From: Candidatus Kerfeldbacteria bacterium | GTDB taxonomy: Bacteria; Patescibacteriota; Patescibacteriia; UBA9570; XYC2-FULL-38-9 | Assembly: GCA_016182555.1 (NCBI GenBank) | Contig: JACPGJ010000002.1 | Coordinates: 1-48,039, forward strand | Direction: 5' to 3' | Length of the DNA: 48,039 nucleotides | In this document: piece after piece, positions 11,392 to 47,748 of the stretch | Numbering within the stretch: the stretch's first letter is position 1 | Layout: each line of letters opens with the position of its first letter | Translations under genes and position numbers: made by a program | The notes under the pieces: generated by a model | Databases searched by the model: none | What the model was told of the DNA's origin: nothing | What the model saw: only the letters and a program-made list of their open reading frames with translations

Positions 11392-11420
11392 TTGTGCAGA
11401 AGAAGCGTAGATGATATAAT
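11392..11420 (+). promoter_or_regulatory. Promoter for the 11425 membrane protein / Clp operon
   Basis: TTGTGC at 11392-11397, a 17-nt spacer and a perfect TATAAT at 11415-11420. Predicted transcription start is near 11427, which would favour the ATG at 11440 over the one at 11425. Confidence 0.55.
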
Positions 11421-18222: not shown

Positions 18223-21153
18223 ATGCGTTCAATCAACAACAGTTATTTTTTGTTACAAAAGAATATACAGCAGAGTAGAGTGCTCACGGCTATTGTTTTT
18301 TTGCTCATCATTGCCACCGCCACAGGATTGATCACCCGCAACACGCCAACGGCACATGCGGCGGCAACATATAGCTACTCCGGTTGTTTTGAGCGTGAAA
18401 ATACCGGCACCAGTGCAACACTGTGGATGCAAGCGCCGCGTTGTACGATTCATTTCACCAACAGCGAAGCCACCACCTTTTCCTACCCATTCACTATTCT
18501 CAACCTCGACCCACAACAATATATTGTCACTAATAGCAGCGGCGAACAAATCAGTGTCACTCGTAACGAAACATCCCTTTCCTTTTACGCAACCATTGCC
18601 GCGCAAACAACCGAAACCCTCACCATCACCCCGTGGGATTATGATCCGAACGCGACCGATTTTTGGTTCGGTGCTATTTCTGACCCACAATCTCAACCCG
18701 GTGGCGACAAACCCAACCCGATTTTCGTAAAAATTATGAACCAAATGGAAGTGTTTCACCCACGTTTTGTTACAGCATCTGGCGACATGATTGGTGGTGA
18801 TGAGGAAGACCCGGCCGAACATGAATTAGAATATGAACTCTATGATCTGGTCTATCAAGGGTTTGAAGGCACAACGATGGCTGTGCCAGGCGACCATGAT
18901 GCGAAACAATCAATTTCTGATTATTACGAACATTTTTATGGGCCGGATTATTACACGTTTACTTATGGCAATACCCGCTTTATTGGATTAGATGATTCCG
19001 AAACTCTCGAAAGCGAAGGCACGATTTCTGATGAACAAATGGCGTGGCTGGAAACAACTCTCGCCGCCGCCACCGAAGAACATATTATTGTATTCATGCA
19101 GCACCCTATTATTCCTCCAACCTGGTCGAATTCCCAAGGAATTGACGAAGAATACCGCTTGCCGATTGCCCAATTATTTACGCAATATGATGTCGAGCTC
19201 GTTCTCTGCGGAGATGCACATGGATACGACGACATGATGATCAACAGTGATGTGCTTCCTGGCCTTACGGGCAGTTATCGCCAAGTGGATGTTGCCGGAG
19301 CGGGTGGAAAATATAATACCTACGATGGTGATCATTTTTTTGTTATGGTGCATGTCAGCGACGATATCATCGAGCATTACAAGTTTGATTATTCCGATGT
19401 TGATGTGACGACGGATTACACCAGCCTGAACGATGGTTCAGAAACTGAAGTCAGTTTTACAGCGACCAACAAGAGTGCTGTTGCTATTCCCTATATTCGG
19501 GCTAAATTCAATGTACAAGCATCGAAAAAATTATATGCAATGACGACCGCGGGTGATTTCCTGCCCGTGACTTCCGCTGATATTGATGGTGTGCGGCGTG
19601 GATATGTCACACTCAGTTTGAATCCGGGAGAATCGCTTGGTATTATCGTGAAAGAACGGACGAAGATATTGACGAATACAAAAAATATTGTGGATACTGA
19701 TGGATTGATTACTTTTCCCAATTTACCCACTGCCACTTCACAAGAAACCGAACTGAAAGTACAATCCGCAAAATATACATCGACCATCGAAATATTGAAT
19801 TGGGATGCGATGGCAGAGAATCGACAATGGCACGAGACAACAGTGCAAGGTGCACGAACCAATTTTACTATTTCGGGCATGATTCCTGATCGGGAATATA
19901 TTGTGTATGTTGGTGACACACCGCGGTATCGAGTGGCATCGGACGAAGAAGGCATGCTCACATTTTCCCACCGCGAACATGCGGCAATTCGTCAATATCA
20001 TCTGAAGCGTTTAGACCAACAGCCGATCAAGAATATTGCGGTGCTCCCAGCGTCTCGTGGAGGTGCGCAAGTCCGTATATTTAATAAAAAAGGGGAAGTC
20101 ACTGATTCTTTTTTTGCATACGATACCGACTTGAATCATGGATTTCATTCTCTATGGGCTGATATTGATGGCGACGACGTATTAGAGCTCATCACCGTTC
20201 CAGAAACTGGTGCGATTGGTCATGTGCGTGCATTTGAAGAAAATGGAGAAACTCTTGCCGGCGTATTTCCCTTTGGTAAAGCATTTACCGGTGGTGTCAA
20301 TATGATGGCTGCCGACGTAGATAACGATGGTATAGATGAGTTAATTGTTTCCCCGCAAGCAAAAAAAAATCCGGAAGTGCGAGTGTATCGTTATCAAGCG
20401 AGTGCGAAAAAATTTACGCTCATCGATTTATTTGAGGTTTTTGATAAACACTATATTGGTGGTGTGAATATCGCTGTTGGCAATATCGATGGTGTGCGTG
20501 GCGAAGAAATTGTGGTGGGTGCTCGCAGTGAAAAACCGGTCATTGCAGTCTATCGCTGGTCTGAAAAAACGCTGCAAATGGAAGAGTGGTTGCGGAAACG
20601 CGCCTATGACCCAATCAATACCGATTATTATACCGGCGGTTTTTCTCTCGCAACCGGCGACATGAATTTCGATGGACGTGATGAGGTCATTATTGGGTCA
20701 TGGAGTGGTGGCAGTCTCATTCGAGCATTCGCGTACCAGCCCAAGAAACAACGTCTACACCTGGCCAATGAACAGCAAGCCTTTGAAGACACATTTAGCG
20801 GTGGAGTATATGTTACTACCGGTAATGTGAATACTACTCCGCAAGAAGAAATTATTGTGTCACCACGTTCAACTCACGCAGAGGAGAGCCGCATTCGTAT
20901 TTTTACTAAACCAACACAGAAGAAAAAAATGCGCATGATTGCTGACACCGCGCCTGTTACTGGCTATACTGGTGGCTTGCATATCAGCGTCGTTGACCCA
21001 AACGGGGATTGGAAGCAAGAATTGGCGGTTACTCAAGATACCGGTTCTTCCTATATTTTTGTCTATGCCAAACGAAAAATAGGATTGAAGAATACCGCAA
21101 CCTATTTGGCCTATGACCGAGCATTTACCGGCGGTCTTACTCTTGCTCAATAA
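18223..21153 (+). CDS. Secreted calcineurin-like metallophosphoesterase with C-terminal VCBS/FG-GAP repeats
   Basis: 976 residues. Signal-anchor at about 19-45 ending in AHAAATYS. A beta-rich domain runs to about 145. The phosphoesterase domain shows ISDPQS (DxH position, His replaced by Gln), TASGDMIGG, VPGDHDAKQ (GNHD-like), FMQHPII and LVLCGDAHGYDD (GHxH-like). Residues about 400-600 are beta-rich linker domains. Residues about 610-976 hold repeated DIDGDD-LELI, DVDNDGIDELIVS and DMNFDGRDEVIIGS blocks, Ca-binding integrin-like repeats expected to form a propeller. Family members hydrolyse phosphate esters or nucleotides. The altered DxH and GNHD/GHxH motifs make activity uncertain. Similar repeats occur in the L,D-transpeptidase at 26494. 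Confidence 0.82.
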   Translation: MRSINNSYFLLQKNIQQSRVLTAIVFLLIIATATGLITRNTPTAHAAATYSYSGCFERENTGTSATLWMQAPRCTIHFTNSEATTFSYPFTILNLDPQQYIVTNSSGEQISVTRNETSLSFYATIAAQTTETLTITPWDYDPNATDFWFGAISDPQSQPGGDKPNPIFVKIMNQMEVFHPRFVTASGDMIGGDEEDPAEHELEYELYDLVYQGFEGTTMAVPGDHDAKQSISDYYEHFYGPDYYTFTYGNTRFIGLDDSETLESEGTISDEQMAWLETTLAAATEEHIIVFMQHPIIPPTWSNSQGIDEEYRLPIAQLFTQYDVELVLCGDAHGYDDMMINSDVLPGLTGSYRQVDVAGAGGKYNTYDGDHFFVMVHVSDDIIEHYKFDYSDVDVTTDYTSLNDGSETEVSFTATNKSAVAIPYIRAKFNVQASKKLYAMTTAGDFLPVTSADIDGVRRGYVTLSLNPGESLGIIVKERTKILTNTKNIVDTDGLITFPNLPTATSQETELKVQSAKYTSTIEILNWDAMAENRQWHETTVQGARTNFTISGMIPDREYIVYVGDTPRYRVASDEEGMLTFSHREHAAIRQYHLKRLDQQPIKNIAVLPASRGGAQVRIFNKKGEVTDSFFAYDTDLNHGFHSLWADIDGDDVLELITVPETGAIGHVRAFEENGETLAGVFPFGKAFTGGVNMMAADVDNDGIDELIVSPQAKKNPEVRVYRYQASAKKFTLIDLFEVFDKHYIGGVNIAVGNIDGVRGEEIVVGARSEKPVIAVYRWSEKTLQMEEWLRKRAYDPINTDYYTGGFSLATGDMNFDGRDEVIIGSWSGGSLIRAFAYQPKKQRLHLANEQQAFEDTFSGGVYVTTGNVNTTPQEEIIVSPRSTHAEESRIRIFTKPTQKKKMRMIADTAPVTGYTGGLHISVVDPNGDWKQELAVTQDTGSSYIFVYAKRKIGLKNTATYLAYDRAFTGGLTLAQ

Positions 21154-21171
21154 TTATTGATTGATAGAACG

Positions 21172-22371
21172 ATGATTTTTGCTCATGGCCCCCTCGGATT
21201 TGTTACCACGCTGACGCTACGCAACGCATGGATAAAACGCTATCCCAAGAAGCGCCGTTTTGGTTATTGGTTGTTAGCTATTGGTTGGTTCGGCGCGATT
21301 TTTCCTGATGTCGACCTGTTATATTTTTACTTACATAATGCCTCTGGTTCGCACCGTGATTTTATTACCCATACGCCAATACTCTATCTAGGTGTATTGG
21401 TTGTTGGTTGTCTCATTGCCTGGCTTACGAAAAATACGAAGCTGTTGTTTGCCACATTCGCATTCACGCTTGGCACGGCTACGCACCTCCTCACCGATAC
21501 CGTTATTGGTCAAATAAAAATTTTCTACCCGTTTTCTTATGAATTTTATGGTATTGCAGATTTCCATCGTTTTAGCATTACCACCAACCTGCTCTTTTTC
21601 AATTTTTTGTTAGAAGGAATCTGTTTCTTTTTTTTCTTCTATGCTTGTCTTCGTTTATTTGTGCACAACCGCCGTACGTACGCTATTGTACTCAGCGTTT
21701 TACTACTGGTGTTTGCCGCAGGCGTATGGTCATTGATGCAATTGAATAACCATGTGTACCATGGGCCACACAATGGTTATTTTGATGATAGCGATGCAGA
21801 TGGCCAAGATAATTATGTTGATCTGGATATGGATGGTGATGGCGTTCGCAATACGGATGATATCGATAGTGATGGTGACGAAAAATCTAATGCACAGGAG
21901 ATTATTGAAAATAGCCAATGGTTTTTGCCGGTATGGTACGATAAAAGTGAAGGTGGATTTATTCAAATACCTGAACGTCTTGGGTTAATCACCACTATTG
22001 ATATGCCATCTCGGTTGTATGGAACCGTCGGTGTGTATATAAAAGAAGAATTGCAAGATGATTATGCCCATAATCCCAATGGCTATGTGCTGCCACCAAC
22101 AGATGAAAATTTTGATCGCAATAGTGAAAATTTTCGTACGTGGTTTGCCCATCGCGGCCGGTTAGAAACCGAACCAATGGCTGGTCGAAATCAAATTGGT
22201 GATATGCTTTTTTTGCAGAGTGGTCATATCGTTGTGGTGAGCGGCTTCACGCTAACAGGTGAAACATTGGTTCTTGATGTGCACAAAAATCGCGACATCC
22301 ATGAAGTATCATTAGAATCCCTAAATGATCAAGTTATTGCCCGCGGTAAAATGTTTTTAACGCAGCAGTAG
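21172..22371 (+). CDS. YdjM-like integral membrane protein fused to Ca-binding TSP3-like repeats and a DUF1287-like outer domain
   Basis: 399 residues from ATG 21172; a TTG at 21157 is less likely. The N-terminal 200 residues carry about five TM segments with polar motifs FPDVDLLYFY and SHRDFITHTP, resembling membrane-bound metal-dependent hydrolases of the YdjM family. Residues about 204-246 are Asp-rich (DDSDADGQDN, DMDGDGVRNTDDIDSDGDE), like thrombospondin type 3 Ca repeats. The C-terminal 150 residues include PTDENFDRNSENFRTWF and GDMLFLQSGHIVVVSGF, which remind me of DUF1287 (NlpC/P60-like), but no catalytic Cys is seen. The fusion is unusual. It overlaps the convergent DUF212 gene by 15 nt at the 3' end. 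Confidence 0.65.
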   Translation: MIFAHGPLGFVTTLTLRNAWIKRYPKKRRFGYWLLAIGWFGAIFPDVDLLYFYLHNASGSHRDFITHTPILYLGVLVVGCLIAWLTKNTKLLFATFAFTLGTATHLLTDTVIGQIKIFYPFSYEFYGIADFHRFSITTNLLFFNFLLEGICFFFFFYACLRLFVHNRRTYAIVLSVLLLVFAAGVWSLMQLNNHVYHGPHNGYFDDSDADGQDNYVDLDMDGDGVRNTDDIDSDGDEKSNAQEIIENSQWFLPVWYDKSEGGFIQIPERLGLITTIDMPSRLYGTVGVYIKEELQDDYAHNPNGYVLPPTDENFDRNSENFRTWFAHRGRLETEPMAGRNQIGDMLFLQSGHIVVVSGFTLTGETLVLDVHKNRDIHEVSLESLNDQVIARGKMFLTQQ

Positions 22372-22815
22372 AAAGAATACCAAAGTGAGTATCGTTCCAG
22401 TCACTGCACCCGCAAACGCTTCTTTGTAGGTATGCCCAAGCCGTTCTTCTAATTGTTTGGGAAATGTCGCACGCACATCGGGTGGCAAAGTATGAATCAA
22501 ATGATTTAATACTTTTCCATGAAAGCCCAGTGCCCAGCGGATACCTACGGCATCGCGAATAAATGTCAGCGAGACAAGTGCGGTAACGGCAAATAAGGCA
22601 GTCGAAAAACCATGAATGAGCCCAACGCTTAAGGTGAGCGAAACAAAGCCAGCAGTGTGAGAAGAAGGCATGCCACCATAACTATTAAACCGTTTCCATT
22701 CAATACGGTGTTGTGGGTGTTGGCGCGCATCTAGAACGACTTTGATAAATTGTGTTATAATCACGACCAGTATTGGAATCGCCAATACCCAGGATTCATG
22801 TAATGTATTATTCAT
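22357..22815 (-). CDS. DUF212 / divergent PAP2-family membrane protein (YuiD-like)
   Basis: 152 residues from the ATG at 22813-22815. Family hallmarks: FNSYGGMPSSHTAGFVSLTL (the PAP2-like phosphatase core GGMPSSH), FIRDAVGIRWALGFHGKVLN, and a C-terminal LGHTYKEAFAGAVTGTILTL. Four TM segments. Members are relatives of acid phosphatases/phospholipid phosphatases of unsettled function. Its start codon touches the start codon of uppP on the other strand with no base between. A promoter on the minus strand (22825-22854) lies inside uppP and predicts a nearly leaderless mRNA. Confidence 0.85.
   Translation of the reverse strand: MNNTLHESWVLAIPILVVIITQFIKVVLDARQHPQHRIEWKRFNSYGGMPSSHTAGFVSLTLSVGLIHGFSTALFAVTALVSLTFIRDAVGIRWALGFHGKVLNHLIHTLPPDVRATFPKQLEERLGHTYKEAFAGAVTGTILTLVFFLLLR
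22753..22761 (+). promoter_or_regulatory. Extended -10 promoter for uppP, inside the DUF212 gene
   Basis: TGTTATAAT, a perfect -10 with the TGn extension. No good -35 (AGAACG at 22733-22738). Predicted start is about 48 nt upstream of the uppP ATG. Confidence 0.45.
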
Positions 22816-23631
22816 ATGCTTAGCATTATAGCGGTTATTTTCGGAATTGTTCAAGGGCTAACTGAATTTATCCCTGTTTCTTCGTCTGGCCACCTGTTAT
22901 TATTGCACAAACTTTTTCCTCAATTTGTATTACAAGATGAAGTTGGTTTTGATGTCGCGCTCCATATAGGCACTCTCGCCGCGCTCTTGGCGGTCTTTTG
23001 GAGAGATTGTTTCGTCTATATTCAGGCTGTATTTGTGCAACCGAGCACACCAGAAGAGACAATGAATCGCCGTGTGGCTTGGCACATTATTCTTGCTATT
23101 ATTCCGGCAGGTCTGGCTGGTTTGTTATTTGAACATATCATCGATACGCATTTGCGTTCTCCATTGATAGTGGTGTGTATGTTGATTATTGTTGCTCTTT
23201 TGTTTTTTGTCATTGAAGCGATGCCAAAAGAAAAATTTCGAACCTCTATGAATGAGATGAAATGGAAACAGGCGTTGGCAATTGGTCTGGCACAAATGTT
23301 GGCCCTTATTCCGGGTACTTCGCGATCTGGTATTACCATGGCGGCAGGTATGGCCACTGGTTTAAAACGTGATCAAGCCGCTCGTTTTTCCTTCCTTATT
23401 GCTATTCCGATTATCGCTGCGGCAGGATTGAAAAAAATGATTGATATGCTTTCTGCCGGAATCGCGACAGCAGAAATCCCGCTCTTTCTCATTGGCATGG
23501 TATCGTCGGCTGTGGTTGGCTATTTGGCCATTCAATTTTTGTTGAAATTTTTAAGCACGAATACCTTGCGTCCATTTGCGGTGTATCGTATTCTATTGGC
23601 ACTGATTGTATTAGCCATTTTTTATATATGA
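22816..23631 (+). CDS. uppP: Undecaprenyl-diphosphatase (BacA/UppP)
   Basis: 271 residues, eight or so TM segments. Signature blocks: GIVQGLTEFIPVSSSGHLLLL (23-residue N-terminal active region, given here to its first 20) and the second LIPGTSRSGITMAAGM motif with the catalytic Ser/Arg. UppP dephosphorylates undecaprenyl diphosphate to regenerate the carrier for peptidoglycan and surface glycans, at the outer face of the membrane. Its stop overlaps the manC start (ATGA), coupling lipid-carrier recycling to GDP-mannose synthesis. The start at 22816 is fixed by family length. Confidence 0.93.
   Translation: MLSIIAVIFGIVQGLTEFIPVSSSGHLLLLHKLFPQFVLQDEVGFDVALHIGTLAALLAVFWRDCFVYIQAVFVQPSTPEETMNRRVAWHIILAIIPAGLAGLLFEHIIDTHLRSPLIVVCMLIIVALLFFVIEAMPKEKFRTSMNEMKWKQALAIGLAQMLALIPGTSRSGITMAAGMATGLKRDQAARFSFLIAIPIIAAAGLKKMIDMLSAGIATAEIPLFLIGMVSSAVVGYLAIQFLLKFLSTNTLRPFAVYRILLALIVLAIFYI
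22825..22854 (-). promoter_or_regulatory. Promoter of the DUF212 gene, inside uppP
   Basis: On the minus strand TTGAAC (22849-22854), an 18-nt spacer and a perfect TATAAT (22825-22830). Only 9 nt separate the -10 from the ATG, so the mRNA would begin about 2-3 nt before the start codon. Confidence 0.65.
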
Positions 23632-24713
23632 ACATTGTGATCCGTGCGGGGGGCGTTGGTTCTCGTTTATGGCCAGTAAGCCGCGAACACCACGCCAAAC
23701 AATTTCACGCATTAACCAGTGAAAAAACGATGCTGCAAGAAGCGGTCGACCGTGTGCAACCGATTGCGGCAATGAACGATATTTTTATCTCTACTCAGGC
23801 CGCTGGCGCAGCGCTGGTTCAAGAGCAGTGCCCGGATATTCCGGTTGAAAATATTATTGTGGAACCGGCGCGTAAGGATACGGCGGCAGCAATTGGTTTG
23901 GAATCGATCATGATTTATAAACAAAACCCGGAAGCCATTGTTGCAAGCCTTGGTTCAGATCATTCTGTTCGGCGTGTGGGTGAATTTCAACGCATGATTC
24001 AATTAGCAGAAGAGTTCGTACGCCGCCACCCGGAATATATTATTCCGATTGGGATTCGTCCCACACAACCAGACAGTGGGTACGGTTATATTCAATATGG
24101 TGAAGTGCTCGATACATTAGAAGGAAAAAATTTATGGAAAGTGAAACGCTTTACTGAAAAGCCATCTGTTGAAGAAGCAAAGCGGTTTTTACAGGAAGAG
24201 AATTTTTTGTGGAATGCGAACATGTTTGTGTGGAAGGTTTCCACCATTTTGGATTTGTATAAACAGCATTTACCACAAATGTACGAACAACTCATGCAGA
24301 TTCATGTTGCTTTGGGTACACCGCAACAGCAAGAGGTGATTGAGCGCGTATATCCCACACTGCAGCAGATTGCCGTCGATTATGCCATTATTGAAAAAAC
24401 AGAGAATATTGCGGCCATGAGTGCGGATATTGGTTGGAATGATATTGGGGATTGGGCACGGTTGAAAGATGAATTGGCTGATAGTGAACTGGATAATGTG
24501 GTCATTGGTGCTGAACATTTGGGCATTAAAACCCGCAACACATTGATTTATAATAATACGGATGCAAAAAAAATGATTGTGACGATTGGCGTAGAAAATA
24601 TGGTGATTGTGGAAACAGAAGATGCACTGCTCATTTGTGATAAGTATCATTCTGCCGAAGTGAAAGATGTGGTGCAGAAACTGCATGACCGAAAAAAGGA
24701 TCATTTATTGTAA
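23628..24713 (+). CDS. manC: Mannose-1-phosphate guanylyltransferase
   Basis: 361 residues. Nucleotidyltransferase signature RAGGVGSRLWPVSREHHAKQF (first 20 conserved positions) with the catalytic Arg/Lys pair, then SDHSVRR, GYGYIQYG, KVKRFTEKPS, LWNANMFVWK and DIGWNDIGDWARL, all typical of GDP-mannose pyrophosphorylases. It makes GDP-mannose from GTP and mannose-1-phosphate. The length shows it lacks the C-terminal isomerase domain of bifunctional ManC/AlgA. It overlaps uppP by 4 nt. The likely use is the GT4/sugar-transferase cluster at 6676-10991. The symbol manC is used in the monofunctional sense. Confidence 0.9.
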   Translation: MNIVIRAGGVGSRLWPVSREHHAKQFHALTSEKTMLQEAVDRVQPIAAMNDIFISTQAAGAALVQEQCPDIPVENIIVEPARKDTAAAIGLESIMIYKQNPEAIVASLGSDHSVRRVGEFQRMIQLAEEFVRRHPEYIIPIGIRPTQPDSGYGYIQYGEVLDTLEGKNLWKVKRFTEKPSVEEAKRFLQEENFLWNANMFVWKVSTILDLYKQHLPQMYEQLMQIHVALGTPQQQEVIERVYPTLQQIAVDYAIIEKTENIAAMSADIGWNDIGDWARLKDELADSELDNVVIGAEHLGIKTRNTLIYNNTDAKKMIVTIGVENMVIVETEDALLICDKYHSAEVKDVVQKLHDRKKDHLL

Positions 24714-30361: not shown

Positions 30362-30889
30362 ATGGCAAAAACACGTCAACAGAAAGAACAAGAGCTTACT
30401 GTTCTATCAGAAAAGCTCGATCGCAGTAAGGGCGTGGTCTTTGCTCGCTACATGGGTTTAAGCGTGAATGAGGTACAAGAATTGCGACGAGAATTGCGAA
30501 AAGAAGAGAATGAGATGGTCGTTGCAAAAAAAAGCCTTGTTGGGCTCATGTTAGAAAAAGCTGGTCAATCCAAGGACCAAACCGCACACATGGACGGCGC
30601 TGTGGCAGTGGTATTCGGCTACAAAGACGAAGTATCACCAGCGAAAGTGCTTGCCACTTTTGCTAAAAAGCATGAGTTAGTCGGTTTCCATGGCGGTCTA
30701 TTGGAAGGAAATTATATCAGCATTGAGCAAGTGACTGCACTCGCGAAATTACCATCACGTCAAGAATTGTTGGCGAAGATGGTTGGTTCGATGAAAGCGC
30801 CGATCTCCGGATTCGCCAATGTTCTGGGTGGCAACCTTCGTGGTTTGGTTCAAGTATTGAATCAAATTTCGGAAAAAAAAGCAGCATAA
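30362..30889 (+). CDS. rplJ: 50S ribosomal protein L10
   Basis: 175 residues. Conserved L10 blocks: KEQELTVLSEKLDRSKGVVF, YMGLSVNEVQELRRELRKE and VAKKSLVGLMLEKAG, then AVVFGYKDEVSPAKVLATFAK and GGLLEGNYISIEQVTALAKL. L10 forms the base of the ribosomal stalk and binds L7/L12 dimers through its C-terminal helix. The usual partner rplL follows after 27 nt. No Shine-Dalgarno site is visible, although this should be a highly expressed gene. Confidence 0.95.
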   Translation: MAKTRQQKEQELTVLSEKLDRSKGVVFARYMGLSVNEVQELRRELRKEENEMVVAKKSLVGLMLEKAGQSKDQTAHMDGAVAVVFGYKDEVSPAKVLATFAKKHELVGFHGGLLEGNYISIEQVTALAKLPSRQELLAKMVGSMKAPISGFANVLGGNLRGLVQVLNQISEKKAA

Positions 30890-47457: not shown

Positions 47458-47748
47458 ATGGTGACAAAAACAGTTTCTGCTCTCACTGCCAGAACACAAT
47501 TTGGACAAATTATGCAACGAGCAAAACAGAAAGATGAACGATTTATTGTTGATCGTCGTGGAGAGCCTCAGGTGGTTATTTTAAGCATCCGTGATTATAT
47601 CAACGCTATTGCTCCAGCTTCTGTTATTGCGCAGTCCATGCGTAAAAGTGCAAAGCGTAAAGGCTTAAACAGACTCACCATGCGTCAAATCAATTCAGAA
47701 ATACGCGCTGTTCGAAAAGAAGCAAGCAAGAAACGTAAAAAAAAATAA
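47458..47748 (+). CDS. Phd/YefM-family antitoxin
   Basis: 96 residues. The N-terminal half KTVSALTARTQFGQIMQRAK, then RFIVDRRGEPQVVILSIRDY, is the standard Phd/YefM DNA-binding and dimerisation fold. The C-terminal part (residues about 60-96) is very basic and ends in KKRKKK, and would be the toxin-neutralising tail. The gene stops 6 nt before a PIN-type toxin start, the usual antitoxin-toxin order. Confidence 0.85.
   Translation: MVTKTVSALTARTQFGQIMQRAKQKDERFIVDRRGEPQVVILSIRDYINAIAPASVIAQSMRKSAKRKGLNRLTMRQINSEIRAVRKEASKKRKKK

Follow-up and report, generated by a model that had tools for sequence, protein, structure and literature searches.

Divergent genes with overlapping promoters are already known as a kind of arrangement, and the uppP/DUF212 locus described here is a variant of it. 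In Streptomyces coelicolor, the promoters of the divergent genes scbA and scbR overlap by 53 bp (PMC7384680), and in excludons the overlapping mRNAs of opposite neighbours can repress each other via RNase III or transcription interference (PMC7154746). In the portions of these papers available to us, such geometry is explained by collision, occlusion or RNA pairing (PMC7384680, PMC7154746). Like scbA/scbR, our pair would have facing promoters, a possible polymerase collision and complementary mRNA 5' ends, with an overlap of about 50 nt that is here predicted from the positions of the -10 elements. The two cases differ in that one scbA/scbR product is, in the available account, a regulator with a signalling molecule, with bistability discussed there, whereas uppP and DUF212 both look like genes for lipid-phosphate proteins and a promoter lies within the opposite coding sequence. 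The likeness to an excludon consists in opposite neighbour genes with overlapping mRNAs (here predicted); as presented in the accessible text, however, an excludon is defined by RNA and involves a long mRNA, while the overlap between uppP and DUF212 is short, predicted and forced by the abutting starts.

In Escherichia coli, BacA and PAP2 enzymes of the PgpB/YbjG type are unrelated isozymes of undecaprenyl pyrophosphate phosphatase. The present pair recalls that set, as uppP is a clear BacA gene and DUF212 is a PAP2-related family; to our knowledge, no head-to-head pairing of BacA-type with PAP2-type genes is known. On balance, we favour a reading in which this conserved pair has face-to-face promoters and transcripts overlapping at their 5' ends, and in which uppP and DUF212 are coupled by interference. 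If true, an uncultured class with small genomes ties two lipid-phosphate proteins together via a promoter in the neighbour's codons, an instance of regulation by geometry, without a regulator.

The window, the whole 48,039-nt stretch of DNA that was analysed, comes from a genome of 1.38 Mb in 8 contigs. Its close relatives in the genome collection are Patescibacteria, the nearest being Candidatus Kerfeldbacteria (Patescibacteria group in NCBI), and we take the class to which the window and its relatives belong to be ABY1 in GTDB naming. The DUF212 gene (divergent PAP2 family, 152 aa) occupies 22357..22815 on the minus strand, with its ATG at 22815-22813, and its product matches the curated family model PF02681 at 5.3e-32 (111.1 bits vs a cut-off of 26.5). 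On the plus strand, uppP (bacA), encoding an undecaprenyl-pyrophosphate phosphatase of 271 aa, occupies 22816..23631 with its ATG at 22816. Its product matches PF02673 (BacA) over the full length 1-257 at 1.4e-81 (274.4 bits vs a cut-off of 33.4) and carries QGLTE and PGTSRS; the motifs of the UppP/BacA family are QxxxE and PGxSRS, and both family model and motifs thus place it in that family. The original prediction had the two ATG codons abutting on opposite strands at 22816/22815, and the letters confirm this: CAT at 22813-22815, the DUF212 start on the minus strand, is followed directly by ATG at 22816-22818, the uppP start, with 0 bases between. The resulting CATATG junction (22813..22818) is identical in G001. 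An alternative DUF212 start, TTG at 22854, is present, yet an ATG in the range fitting 22815 was found in 57/57 pairs listed. DUF212 appears as an inverted gene squeezed into a run of plus-strand genes, lying tail to tail with a YdjM-like membrane protein gene (21157..22371, plus strand) and overlapping it by 15 nt (22357-22371). Beyond uppP, a mannose-1-phosphate guanylyltransferase-like gene with NTP_transferase and ManC beta-helix domains (23628..24713, plus strand) overlaps the uppP end by ATGA.

Conservation of this arrangement in relatives is strong. Our class sample comprised 380 genomes, with DUF212 found in 153 and BacA in 269; of the 153 DUF212 genomes, 148 had a listed DUF212 position (the other five were left out), and 131 of these 148 also had a placed BacA. 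The two genes were divergent and adjacent in 86 of the 131. Among the remaining 45, one genome had them in tandem and 44 had them apart or on different contigs, and contig breaks can hide a pair (possibly in G295 and G150). Since 45 of the 131 class genomes that carry both genes lack the linkage, it is not essential. From other classes of the phylum we checked 73 genomes in which DUF212 passed the cut-off; BacA was present in 68, and 0/68 had the genes head to head. This makes the head-to-head pair a class trait, and the measured pairs span 28 families. BacA was over the cut-off in 131/148 genomes with a placed DUF212 as compared to 137/232 others (odds ratio 5.3, p 2e-10), a co-occurrence that we count for a functional link between both genes. 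The tandem case (G037, locus L018), with both genes on one strand and DUF212 first, represents a second kind of linkage.

The distance between the two starts was measured in 82 of the 86 pairs, three (G368, G271, G155) being dropped by the motif rule and one (G289) excluded for a partial uppP. The DUF212 start was set as the ATG nearest to 40 codons before the motif (at 46 in G000, G006, G007 and G008), and the uppP start sits 18-21 codons ahead of the PxSSSGH proline in 65 pairs. The median start-to-start gap was 25.5 nt, with 26 pairs at 10 nt or less: -2 nt in 6, 0-10 in 20, 11-30 in 17, 31-100 in 34 and more than 100 in 5. Members of the window's order (G001, G005-G009) have gaps of -2 to 1 nt, and the start codons overlap by 2 nt (CATG) in G005, G007, G008, G009, G111 and G186. 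Such closeness might reflect compaction only, a pair inherited from the class ancestor whose space was squeezed by genome reduction, with an overlap that regulates nothing. This is possible, though we doubt it. In the same kinds of genomes other divergent pairs are less tight: when a single crude gene caller was run on the window plus 80 named loci, the gap did not exceed 30 nt in 20/43 cases of this pair vs 6/42 of other divergent pairs (p 0.002). The pair is also found in 28 families, though 45 of 131 genomes do without it, and a promoter appears to be kept in another gene's codons. Compaction does agree with the small genome (1.38 Mb), with the overlaps of DUF212 with its other neighbour (15 nt) and of uppP with the next gene (ATGA), and with a DUF212-side box that shows no extra constraint; gaps ranging from -2 to 224 nt likewise indicate that no fixed geometry is kept. 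Coupling through the shared start, which we prefer, turns on where the promoters lie. A gap of a few bases leaves no room for a promoter, which must therefore sit in the opposite gene or beyond.

The original prediction placed a plus-strand uppP promoter within DUF212. We confirmed TGTTATAAT at 22753-22761 on the plus strand, and the longer TGTGTTATAAT (22751..22761, plus strand), formed by the I-I-T-Q codons of DUF212 read backwards, is the predicted extended -10 of uppP; the extended -10 consensus is TGnTATAAT. No -35 for TGTTATAAT was seen among the promoter-like sites found in the 1.4-kb region. Because 15 of 100 shuffles reach the 4 occurrences of TGNTATAAT counted in the window (1.9 expected), the motif alone is not beyond chance, and its weight comes from conservation. 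In the first 25 DUF212 codons, antisense TGnTATAAT occurred in 18/65 pairs vs 1.43 expected when codons were redrawn synonymously for the same protein, a count reached by 0 of 20000 simulations. Across all measured pairs it occurred in 18/82 (1.86 expected), with 12 occurrences beyond the window's order; the 18 come from 7/28 families, and the counts and shuffles ignore kinship and concern a pattern chosen after viewing the window and its relatives. The looser TGnTAnnnT occurred in 29/65 pairs (12.2 expected). By comparison, TGnTATAAT was found in 0/32 DUF212 genes not head to head with uppP, where 0.28 was expected. These controls were drawn from 35 DUF212 genes in the 62 of 148 placed-DUF212 genomes without a head-to-head pair; three were unusable (G325 failed the motif rule, and no ATG fell within range in G162 and G221), and the set includes the tandem genome G037, some genomes without BacA and some genes near contig ends.

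Codon usage under the box points the same way. TGnTATAAT lies at the matching place in G001, G005, G007, G008 and G009, and the peptide beneath it is I-I-T-Q in the window's order (I-I-S-Q in G001), I-I-A-Q in family f11 and I-I-P in four other families, so the box is not tied to one inherited peptide position. In a seven-member alignment of the order, in which G006 has no Ile pair, the two Ile codons are ATT in 6/6 and ATA in 6/6, against a mean pairwise codon identity of 0.37 over 46 conserved DUF212 columns; ATA makes up 21% of the other Ile codons, giving a P of about 1e-4 for 6/6. Further fully conserved codon columns number one in DUF212 and six in uppP, all of them two-fold codons. Two genomes of the window's own family have no uppP next door: G002 has GTA-GTC with no box left, and G004 has ATT-GTA with the box TGATACAAT, one mismatch away, so only in G002 has the box clearly disappeared along with uppP. 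The remnant in G004 could serve its new neighbour, a manC-like gene. From these codon patterns, the predicted extended -10 of uppP is held in DUF212 beyond protein constraint in part of the pairs, including the window, and its conservation at synonymous positions strengthens the claim from which we started. The 64/82 pairs without a full TGnTATAAT would need less perfect uppP promoters.

Transcription of uppP could also come mainly by read-through from the plus-strand genes at 18223-22371, with DUF212 inverted inside, as in the non-contiguous operons described in the available part of PMC7154746. The conserved extended -10 directly upstream of uppP makes this very unlikely, even though the plus-strand gene upstream ends within DUF212 (22371) and the search for plus-strand terminator-like sites from there to uppP was negative. 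Least probable of all is that the antisense motif is a regulator's site or an aid to DUF212 translation (e.g. ATA near the start) and not a promoter: sequence conservation by itself and the status of ATA as a minor codon speak for it, but the motif equals the extended -10 consensus and lies on different peptides in different families, and a translational role does not predict its absence from 32/32 DUF212 genes not head to head with uppP.

On the other side of the junction, the evidence for a promoter is more local. The predicted -10 of DUF212, TATAAT (22825..22830, minus strand), lies within uppP codons 4-5 and starts at -15 from the DUF212 ATG; the predicted -35, TTGAAC (22849..22854, minus strand), stands 18 nt from it and corresponds, read in reverse, to the Val-Gln codons (GTT CAA) in the uppP GIVQG motif. 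Together, TTGAAC-18-TATAAT at 22854..22825 matches the consensus at 10 of 12 positions. The 1.4-kb region holds 6 promoter-like sites where 3.3 are expected, so one site alone proves nothing. The site exists as originally predicted, but it is confined to 2/82 pairs, the window (G000) and G001, its nearest relative with the pair, at the same offset; five other pairs, with gaps of 39-62 nt, have TTGAnn 16-19 nt from TATAAT. The idea that uppP contains a conserved DUF212 promoter was rejected, as the boxes did not exceed synonymous codon nulls (11/65 vs 7.95, p 0.14; 7/23 vs 5.23, p 0.20). Counted raw and uncorrected for composition, -10-like boxes before DUF212 peak at -24..-11, where the 7-nt bins hold 29 and 30 of 82 pairs, compared to 3-11/82 per bin more than 38 nt upstream.

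The position of the -10 at -15, together with an absent Shine-Dalgarno, suggests that the DUF212 mRNA is leaderless or nearly so, which fits what had been proposed for it. In the two genomes without uppP at the locus, the DNA upstream of DUF212 is quite different; in G002 TATACT stands 10 nt before the DUF212 ATG, in G004, which has two ATGs, TATAAT stands 7 nt before the second, and these spacings (TATACT-N10-ATG and TATAAT-N7-ATG) would fit a leaderless mRNA as well. A missing Shine-Dalgarno was considered as a special feature of the pair and rejected. In a scan of 36 listed ORFs of at least 150 aa plus DUF212, taking the first start codon, just 5/37 window ORFs had one, so its absence looks like a genome trait; among 65 pairs, 4 uppP and 2 DUF212 genes had one.

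Taken together, the two predicted -10 elements suggest how the shared start might work. Polymerase would transcribe uppP from the extended -10 inside the first 25 DUF212 codons, starting at about 22768 on the plus strand, and DUF212 from the -10 about 15 nt before its ATG, starting at 22815-22818 on the minus strand and yielding an mRNA with little or no leader. With about 60 bp between the facing -10 elements, an RNA polymerase leaving either promoter would have to cross the other one, and the mRNAs would be complementary over their first ~50 nt. A 5' overlap was indeed predicted earlier, at about 60 nt; the -10 positions support the overlap and put it at about 50 nt (22768..22818). Occlusion or collision at the shared start would couple both genes, with sense-antisense pairing as a second layer, and the coupling would set the ratio of UppP, which by its family converts C55-PP to C55-P, to the PAP2-like DUF212 protein. 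The architecture of the pair is well supported; interference, which is only one possible outcome of facing-promoter geometry, and the activity of DUF212 are what we infer, and mutual control of uppP and DUF212 is suggested in the same way. A 7-bp hairpin, GTATTGG-CCAATAC, lies at 22770-22788, where the uppP mRNA is predicted to begin. In the window, the 93-nt fold computed for the predicted uppP leader was no better than shuffles (z 0.69).

The link of both products to lipid phosphates, part of the original prediction, holds for UppP by family and for DUF212 through HMM matches, motifs and a weak fold similarity. PAP2 phosphatases carry the motifs KxxxxxxRP (motif 1), PSGH (motif 2) and SRxxxxxHxxxD (motif 3). 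In 78 aligned DUF212 proteins, K25, Y46, G48, M49, P50, S51, H53, R93, H128 and G136 are invariant. Motif 2 is present as PSxH, with P50, S51 and H53 invariant and a third residue that varies (S, A, G and others). Motif 1 is absent from the 78 proteins as such: K25 is invariant, but no conserved RP follows it. In the region of motif 3, the invariant H128 lies in ERxGHTPxE, where E replaces D and the spacing is shorter. K25 and H128 could act as the motif 1 lysine and the motif 3 histidine. The window's DUF212 protein had no match to PF01569 (PAP2) at 1e-3, and in 3 of 17 genomes searched PF01569 matched the DUF212 locus, at 4.8e-6 (G341), 2.6e-4 (G369) and, under the cut-off, 7.7e-4 (G240). 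The DUF212 structure was predicted with a pLDDT of 91. In VIA-align, three entries of human LPP1 (Z 7.6, 7.5 and 5.7) and three bacterial acid phosphatases (Z 7.0-7.1) were among its matches; PAP2 enzymes held ranks 2-6, all with Z below 8, the tool's safe level, and an unrelated designed protein came first at 8.1. Foldseek gave no match of the model in the PDB at E 0.001, and a profile search of PDB sequences with DUF212 had a best E of 0.87. DUF212 resembles PAP2 phosphatases by HMM matches, motifs and, weakly, fold, the structural likeness being no more than suggestive. Our literature search, whose scope left out most subscription papers and preprints, returned no paper title on the function of DUF212 or divergent PAP2 proteins, and no paper on undecaprenyl-diphosphatase in the candidate phyla radiation.

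We also considered a bolder, rather unlikely proposal: that DUF212 is a second, PAP2-type Und-PP phosphatase, that the shared start selects the isozyme dose without a protein regulator, and that DUF212 alone recycles the carrier where BacA was lost. In seventeen class genomes DUF212 is placed but BacA does not exceed the cut-off; MraY was matched in 16 of them (14 over the cut-off). A PAP2 match outside DUF212 was found in 10/17, and in G240 the sole PAP2 match is the DUF212 gene itself. Six of the 17 had no PAP2 match (G039, G105, G162, G195, G183 and G130), with completeness of at least 90% only for G039, G105 and G162. These three have MraY, and of BacA, PAP2 and DUF212 only the last exceeds its cut-off, with a trace of BacA at 5.6e-4 in G162. 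They are candidates for DUF212 acting alone in lipid-carrier recycling; as 10/17 genomes have another PAP2 match and drafts may lack genes, the idea is a lead, not a test. Gene-neighbour evidence nonetheless points DUF212 to the undecaprenyl phosphate cycle and offers an enzyme-assayable handle on this family. In the two genomes of the window's own family in which uppP is gone from the locus (G002, locus L017; G004, locus L027), DUF212 and the manC-like gene now form the head-to-head pair; BacA lies on another contig in G002, and none was found in G004 (92% complete).

Elsewhere in the window, TGATATAAT occurs at three more sites, 11412-11420 on the plus strand and 30711-30719 and 47594-47602 on the minus strand, which are possible extended -10 promoters. 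YchF and leaderless mRNA are treated in the available part of PMC12641178. The genes at 18223 and 41543 have TATAGT 13 and 15 nt before their ATG, and leaderless starts may be common in this genome.
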